From assembly GCF_009758415.1 (NCBI RefSeq), contig NZ_WQRF01000008.1, positions 1-64,000 of the forward strand: a stretch of DNA of 64,000 nucleotides, read 5' to 3'. The translations under genes were made by a program, and so were the position numbers. The notes beneath the pieces were generated by a model. The model ran no database searches. It was not told where the DNA came from and was given only the letters and a program-made list of their open reading frames with translations. This document shows, in pieces, positions 19,405 through 39,560 of the stretch (position 1 is the stretch's first letter; each line of letters opens with the position of its first letter). This DNA comes from Devosia marina. GTDB lineage: Bacteria > Pseudomonadota > Alphaproteobacteria > Rhizobiales > Devosiaceae.

Positions 19405-19553
19405 CGCCGGACCTTCTCCATGTGAATAGGTGGAGCAGTTCCGACATCGCCATAGCAAGGGGCTATGACCAGAGGGGCCCGGCACTGCCCCTTCTAAATG
19501 CGGGAAAAGGCGAGAAAGTTCAACCCCCGCTTTTGGCGGAGAAACAGCCCGGA

Positions 19554-38217: not shown

Positions 38218-39291
38218 TTACGCCACCGCCTTCTTGGTTACCGCGCGCCGTTTTTCGACGGCTTCGGCCAGGGCTTCGAGGGCGGCGACGGTGGTGTCCC
38301 AGTCGATGCAGCCGTCGGTGATGGACTGGCCGTAGGTGAGGAGCTGGCCGGGGACCAGATCCTGGCGACCGGCGACCAGGTTGGATTCGACCATGACGCC
38401 GATAATGCGCTTGTCGCCGCTGGCGAGCTGGTCGCCGATATCGGCCAGGACGAGCGGCTGGTTCTCGGGGTTTTTGGAAGAATTGGCGTGACTGGCATCG
38501 ATCAGGATGGCGGGGTTGAGACCGGCCTTTTGCGCGGCCTTGGCAGCGGCGTCGATGCTGTCGGCATCGTAATTGGTTGTTTTGCCGCCGCGCAGGATGA
38601 TGTGGCAATCCTGGTTGCCGGTCGTGGCGGCGATGGCGGAGCGCCCATCCTTGGTGACGGCCATGAAGTGATGCGGCTGGGAGGCCGAAAGCACTGCATC
38701 GAGCGCGATCTTGATATTGCCGTCGGTGCCGTTCTTGAAGCCGACGGGGCAGGAGAGGCCGGAGGCCAGCTCGCGATGGATCTGGCTTTCGGTGGTGCGC
38801 GCCCCGATGGCGGCCCAGGTGACCAGATCGACCAGATATTGCGGTGTGGTCATGTCGAGAAATTCGCAAGCGGCCGGCAAGCCGAGATTGGCAATATCGA
38901 GCAGCAGGGCACGCGCAGTGTGCAGGCCATGATCTATGTTGAAGCTGCCATCGAGATCGGGGTCGTTGATCAGACCCTTCCAGCCCACCGTGGTGCGGGG
39001 CTTTTCGAAATAGACGCGCATGATGATTTCGAGCCGGTCGCCGAGCTTCTCACGCAGGGGCGCGAGACGGTTGGCGTAGTCCATGGCGGCCTGGGGGTCG
39101 TGAATGGAGCAGGGACCAACGATAACGGCCAGGCGATCATCCTGGCCGGTGAGGATGTTGTGGAAGGCGTGGCGGGCCGCAATTACGGTGCGGGTGGCCG
39201 CGTCGGTGCGCGGATGGGTGTGCATGACCTCGATGGGCGTGGTCAGCGGTTTGATTTCGGTGATGCGCAGGTCGTCGGTGGATTTGAGCAT
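38218..39291 (-). CDS. aroG: 3-deoxy-7-phosphoheptulonate synthase, class I
   Basis: A 357-residue AroF/G/H-type DAHP synthase, the first enzyme of the shikimate pathway. Diagnostic stretches are VIVGPCSIHDPQAAMDYA, MRVYFEKPRTTVGWKGLINDP and LIDASHANSSKNPENQP, with metal and PEP ligands. It condenses PEP with erythrose-4-phosphate. The symbol follows the family name; which aromatic amino acid inhibits the enzyme cannot be read. The 5' region on this strand holds a leader peptide ORF with a run of aromatic codons and a terminator, so expression is very probably attenuated by aromatic amino acid supply. Confidence 0.93.
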   Translation of the reverse strand: MLKSTDDLRITEIKPLTTPIEVMHTHPRTDAATRTVIAARHAFHNILTGQDDRLAVIVGPCSIHDPQAAMDYANRLAPLREKLGDRLEIIMRVYFEKPRTTVGWKGLINDPDLDGSFNIDHGLHTARALLLDIANLGLPAACEFLDMTTPQYLVDLVTWAAIGARTTESQIHRELASGLSCPVGFKNGTDGNIKIALDAVLSASQPHHFMAVTKDGRSAIAATTGNQDCHIILRGGKTTNYDADSIDAAAKAAQKAGLNPAILIDASHANSSKNPENQPLVLADIGDQLASGDKRIIGVMVESNLVAGRQDLVPGQLLTYGQSITDGCIDWDTTVAALEALAEAVEKRRAVTKKAVA

Positions 39292-39330: not shown

Positions 39331-39360
39331 AAAAAAGCCGCCTCGGAAGTCGGGCGGCTG
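39331..39360 (-). terminator. Attenuator terminator upstream of DAHP synthase
   Basis: On the minus strand the stem AGCCGCC-CGACTTCCGA-GGCGGCT runs directly into TTTTTT. It ends about 40 bases before the aroG ATG and follows the leader ORF by about 35 bases. The 5' arm (with the preceding AGCCA) can alternatively pair with GGCGGAGGCT inside the leader ORF, which would prevent the terminator from forming. Confidence 0.85.
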
Positions 39361-39393
39361 GCTTGCGATTTGGTGGTCTTGTCTGGGGTCAGA

Positions 39394-39465
39394 TCACACG
39401 CGCGCAATAGCCTCCGCCGGGAGCGGATAGCTAAAATACCAAAAGAAGGTTGCGGTGTTGATCAT
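39394..39465 (-). CDS. Aromatic leader peptide of the DAHP synthase attenuator
   Basis: A 23-residue ORF on the minus strand, ATG at 39463-39465 and TGA at 39394-39396. The peptide is MINTATFFWYFSY followed by PLPAEAIARV. Six of seven consecutive codons 7-13 encode Phe, Phe, Trp, Tyr, Phe, (Ser), Tyr. No clear Shine-Dalgarno sequence precedes the ATG, so it may be leaderless or weakly translated. Within the ORF TCCG/CGGA can form a first hairpin; ribosome stalling at the aromatic codons would mask its left arm and free GGCGGAGGCT to act as antiterminator. This is the layout of a classical amino-acid attenuator. Confidence 0.8.
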   Translation of the reverse strand: MINTATFFWYFSYPLPAEAIARV

Positions 39466-39499
39466 GGGCGGGAAGGTAGCGGCGAGTCGGAGGCTTGTC

Positions 39500-39560
39500 G
39501 AGTCCCGACTTTGGTAGGGGCCTGCAACCTTGTGTCTGGGTGCCCGCCCCTACCTCGCTT
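39500..39560. repeat. Inverted repeat between leader and PNPOx gene
   Basis: A long hairpin with arms GGTAGGGGC (39513-39521) and GCCCCTACC-like (39543-39553) lies upstream of the DAHP synthase leader and downstream of the PNPOx gene. It could terminate the PNPOx transcript. Confidence 0.5.

Follow-up and report, generated by a model that had tools for sequence, protein, structure and literature searches.

A conserved leader peptide and candidate attenuator upstream of the type I DAHP synthase gene in Devosia marina and other Proteobacteria

How bacteria control entry into the shikimate pathway has been little described outside the enteric bacteria with TyrR and TrpR. Within the 64,000-nucleotide stretch of Devosia marina DNA analysed here (the window), a short open reading frame (ORF) rich in aromatic codons, an intrinsic terminator and a gene for a type I (AroFGH) DAHP synthase follow one another in this order on the minus strand. 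The synthase gene (aroG, 38218–39291, minus strand) scores 521.8 bits against TIGR00034 (curated cut-off 173.2) and 312.9 bits against PF00793, and the closest solved structures of its product are entries for Phe-regulated DAHP synthase. An earlier note, made from the sequence of this stretch, had proposed that the ORF encodes an attenuating leader peptide. In the reading that we favour, to which we assign a probability of about 0.88, the region controls this synthase gene by ribosome-mediated transcription attenuation, and shortage of any aromatic amino acid would lead to read-through into aroG.

The leader ORF, MINTATFFWYFSYPLPAEAIARV, spans 39394–39465 (minus strand) and has 23 codons, among which the putative control codons Phe-Phe-Trp-Tyr-Phe-Ser-Tyr run from 39447 to 39427, just as the earlier note had described. 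The terminator follows at 39331–39359 (minus strand) and is separated from the DAHP synthase gene by approximately 40 nt. Such a codon run is rare by chance: a short ORF in which 4 or more of 8 codons are aromatic was present in 1.8% of random 300-nt pieces of the window, and one with 6 or more in none of about 4,000. Upstream regions of close homologues were drawn from relatives in the genus and the order, together with 80 loci from a scan of bacterial genomes. An equivalent ORF, with 4 or more aromatic codons in 8, is present in every one of the 96 distinct regions; codons for Phe, Trp and Tyr all occur in 95, and all 96 have an intrinsic terminator between this ORF and the gene. The leader ORF usually ends 85–105 nt upstream of the gene, its C-terminal codons are conserved as well, and leader and terminator occur together from Devosia to Mesorhizobium, Bradyrhizobium, Labrys, Kaistia, Inquilinus, Rubellimicrobium and others. 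The earlier note had named a lack of conservation in relatives as grounds for abandoning the proposal; the aromatic run and the terminator were found to be kept. The leader and terminator observed upstream of the DAHP synthase gene are confirmed as real.

The terminator of D. marina consists of AGCCGCC, a 10-nt loop, GGCGGCT and six T (strands 3 and 4). A generic terminator scan, which permits loops of 3–8 nt, listed nothing at 39331–39359, where the loop is longer. Among the homologous regions, the terminator pairs are intact in 88.5% of cells, with changes on both sides in 13 cells compared with 3.3 in shuffles. Folding the leader region computationally, as the earlier note had suggested, showed that its fold is more stable than those of dinucleotide shuffles (z −2.6). 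A competing structure can also be drawn on the minus strand, in which strand 2 (GGCGGAGGCT, 39418–39409), lying within the leader ORF and forming the 5′ side of the antiterminator, pairs with strand 3 (AGCCAGCCGCC, 39363–39353), which is common to antiterminator and terminator; TCCGCT can likewise pair with GGCGGA. The antiterminator pairs are intact in 80%, and their core is almost invariant. Column-wise covariation in a MAFFT alignment was uninformative for the antiterminator, whose core is nearly constant and whose flank slips in register, and we therefore used a swap test instead. Strand 2 paired with its own strand 3 at −22.7 kcal/mol and with the strand 3 of other species at −20.4 kcal/mol, and 0 of 2,000 permutations were as good, a figure uncorrected for the relatedness of the sequences. 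Judged from these comparisons, the alternative pairing between the 3′ codons of the leader and the 5′ arm of the terminator is conserved and co-adapted. A plain constitutive terminator that happens to follow a chance aromatic ORF, with no regulation at all, is contradicted both by this co-adaptation and by conservation far above chance, and we give that explanation almost no credence.

Three mutually exclusive pairings had been claimed for the region. All three can be drawn, and the terminator (3:4) and the antiterminator (2:3) are conserved; the third, a hairpin inside the leader (1:2) in which strand 1 (TAGCTATCCGCT, 39433–39422, minus strand) could pair with strand 2, is not. This hairpin is well formed in Devosia, where strand 1 is conserved, and is no better than shuffles in divergent relatives, so that it is probably not an essential part of the system. 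A small hairpin across the leader stop codon can form in several groups, is weakly supported against shuffles (mean z −0.4) and could be a polymerase pause site.

Where transcription of the leader might start was assessed by aligning 89 nonredundant regions on the leader ATG. The resulting profile shows a −35 element TCGACA/GTGACA, a 16-nt spacer and a −10 element CTAnnn, with C at position −1 in 87 of the 89. The pattern TCGACA/GTGACA/TGGACA-N16-CTAnnn is present in 77 of the 89 regions, compared with 0.8% of shuffles and 1.0% of random pieces. In D. marina the predicted −35 element is TCGACA (39496–39501, minus strand) and the predicted −10 element CTACCT (39474–39479, minus strand), which ends 8 nt before the leader ATG; across relatives, 69 of the 77 promoter matches place the end of the −10 box 7 or 8 nt before the ATG. 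As this distance is fixed, the transcript is predicted to start at, or within 1–2 nt of, the A of the ATG (39465), and the leader mRNA is probably leaderless. A transcription start downstream of the leader, the other result that the earlier note had named as refuting, is not predicted: the sole conserved promoter pattern lies directly upstream of the leader. The sequence CCAAAGTCGGGACTCGACA (39496–39514, minus strand) overlaps the predicted −35 box, holds the inverted repeat AGTC-GG-GACT, is unique in the window and is largely conserved only in Devosia; it may serve as an operator or extend the promoter.

The locus thus combines the elements of a classical attenuator: codons for pathway products in a leader ORF, an intervening terminator, a competing antiterminator that overlaps the leader codons and, as far as sequence predicts it, a promoter upstream of the leader. 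These elements and their conservation can be read directly from the genomes compared, while stalling, read-through and a response to each of Phe, Trp and Tyr are what the conserved codons lead us to infer. In the proposed mechanism, transcription would begin at or beside the leader ATG, and a ribosome would load on the leaderless message, as the promoter position implies. With Phe-, Trp- and Tyr-tRNA all charged, the ribosome would reach the leader stop codon and cover strand 2, leaving strand 3 to pair with strand 4 and end transcription before aroG. Scarcity of any one of these charged tRNAs would stall the ribosome in the FFWYFSY run, and the free strand 2 would pair with strand 3 while RNA polymerase was still making strand 4, so that aroG would be read through. 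One short codon run would in this way work as an OR gate that responds when any one of the aromatic amino acids is short.

A masking model gave predictions in keeping with these steps. With the ribosome placed at the Trp codon, 72 of 75 leaders retained the antiterminator in the incomplete transcript; with the ribosome at the stop codon, the antiterminator formed in none of the 75 and the terminator in all of them. In the complete transcript at equilibrium, 60 of the 75 leaders still preferred the terminator when the ribosome stood at Trp. As the terminator is usually the more stable structure in the complete transcript even in the stalled state, antitermination would have to be kinetic, as in other attenuators.

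Which amino acids the leader senses is a separate matter. Adding wider samples brought the collection to 115 distinct leader peptides, of which 107 contain Phe, Trp and Tyr, 8 contain Phe and Tyr only, and none lacks Phe or Tyr. Leaders without the Trp codon (L104, L124–L127, L226, L228 and L231) have Tyr, Phe, Arg, Thr or Gly at that position. On these sequences, lineages seem to differ in which amino acids the leader senses. The Phe codons of the leaders are mostly TTT (185 of 215; 30 are TTC), whereas five genes of the window favour TTC (55 of 69; 14 are TTT), from which we infer that the leader would be a more sensitive gauge. An attenuator of this kind could in practice respond to just one or two aromatic amino acids, the other codons being bystanders: the aroF leader AroR of Corynebacterium glutamicum has Phe-Tyr-Phe and responds to Phe but not to Tyr (PMC11802643), and the 8 leaders without Trp point the same way. 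We consider this rather unlikely, given that every one of the 115 leaders has Phe and Tyr and 107 have Trp as well, mostly within the run and in several families and classes, and that a single Trp codon kept at one position is not expected of a bystander. We lean instead, with modest confidence, towards joint sensing, in which the single leaderless peptide of an uncatalogued proteobacterial family of DAHP synthase attenuators would act as a joint OR gate for Phe, Tyr and Trp, with the Trp codon missing in some lineages.

We next asked how closely the leader is tied to this gene, using a covariance model of the leader region (R1) that was run over genome samples, with matches below E = 1e-10 counted as strong. 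In a class sample of 289 genomes, the 8 strong matches coincided exactly with the 8 genomes whose type I AroFGH enzyme scores above its cut-off. Likewise, the 18 Alphaproteobacteria with a type I enzyme in a phylum sample are the same 18 that have the R1 RNA, and in an order sample the leader precedes all 39 type I genes. In other classes, type I enzymes were found in 154 genomes and R1 matches below 1e-5 in 18 genomes. Sixteen of these 18 matches are leaders before an aroG homologue, for example MQTQRAYFFYFWFSPPAAER. The other two, a pheST leader and a pheA leader, are weak R1 matches that act as a positive control; leaders of the pheA and pheST type are textbook Phe attenuators. Against this pattern, one alphaproteobacterial type I aroG homologue (locus L249, genome G337) keeps the terminator and has a leader without an aromatic run (MNAARTLSARFYPRSIAGGIRGA), which suggests decay or a change of control there.

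The distribution also bears on whether the leader might chiefly make a trans-acting small RNA or peptide, like rnTrpL and peTrpL of Sinorhizobium, with control of aroG secondary. A leaderless attenuator RNA with functions in trans is known for trpL of S. meliloti (PMC10117765, PMC7298713), and the conserved C-terminal leader codons would be consistent with a functional peptide. These codons, however, coincide with strand 2 of the antiterminator, which accounts for much of their conservation; strong R1 matches in the alphaproteobacterial samples occur only in genomes with a type I aroG, and they adjoin that gene wherever the locus was retrieved and not cut by a contig end. Nor does a weak match to the RcsR1 small RNA (RF02552) lend weight to a trans-acting product: it scored 18.6 bits against a cut-off of 60, was not reproduced in relatives and had no counterpart above cut-off in the 289 class genomes, and we rejected it. 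A chiefly trans-acting role therefore appears improbable, and attenuation of aroG is retained as the main function proposed.

The reach of this control within D. marina is narrower than had been supposed. The earlier note held that the leader would couple the first shikimate step to all three aromatic amino acids at once. The genome encodes one type I enzyme (38218–39291) and also one type II DAHP synthase (PF01474; G000 C10:271455-272768, locus L117), close behind a glutathione-reductase-like gene, and the stretch inspected upstream of the type II gene has no aromatic leader. The leader would consequently control only the type I isoenzyme and not the whole entry to the pathway. The stretches inspected before trpE and pheA (G000 C10 near 785463 and C1 near 16079) likewise contained no Trp leader and no Phe leader, respectively. 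This outcome for trpE contrasts with the trpE attenuation reported in Sinorhizobium.

Aromatic leader peptides before DAHP synthase genes have precedents, to which the present leader was compared by description. In C. glutamicum, aroR-aroF is a case of leader peptide attenuation of a DAHP synthase gene (PMC11802643, PMC4046766); it shares an aromatic leader peptide and transcription attenuation with the system described here, and differs in its Phe-Tyr-Phe codons without Trp, its reported response to Phe and not to Tyr (PMC11802643), and its phylum. The uORFC-13-1 motif of Acholeplasma, a proposed uORF and terminator before aroF (PMC8632094), resembles our locus in that arrangement, but has at least one Phe codon, another structure and a host from another phylum. 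The trpL (rnTrpL) leader of S. meliloti, translated from a leaderless message, is likewise an alphaproteobacterial leaderless leader ORF with an attenuator RNA (PMC10117765), but it reads Trp only and controls trpE. The enteric pheA and pheST leaders, like ours, show classical ribosome-mediated attenuation by aromatic codons; in them Phe codons dominate, the genes controlled are Phe-specific and the leader sequence is different. Reading three amino acids with one leader peptide is familiar from the branched-chain operons, as in the ilvGMEDA leader of Escherichia coli, where one peptide reads Ile, Val and Leu; that leader serves a different pathway and is unrelated in sequence.

The leader region matched no Rfam 15 family at gathering score and no NCBIfam entry, and neither its peptide core nor a description of it was found in the open literature searched; older comparative surveys of proteobacterial attenuators may already describe it. 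The mechanism itself is known. The novelty, within the sources searched, lies in a leader with codons for all three aromatic amino acids that is tied to type I DAHP synthase in several proteobacterial classes and has a predicted leaderless start. Sensing every end product with such a leader would take a single part and no regulatory protein. The leader is present in nitrogen-fixing rhizobia and in further proteobacterial classes. It would also offer a natural sensor whose codons can be exchanged, and comparing lineages with and without Trp provides a way to test which amino acid limits the pathway. Two further RNA elements came to light: a terC RNA motif (Rfam RF03067) at 19432–19490 of the window (minus strand; 54.4 bits, above cut-off) and a ZMP/ZTP riboswitch (RF01750) in the flank of a Rhodopseudomonas locus (L100, 5465–5546, minus strand).
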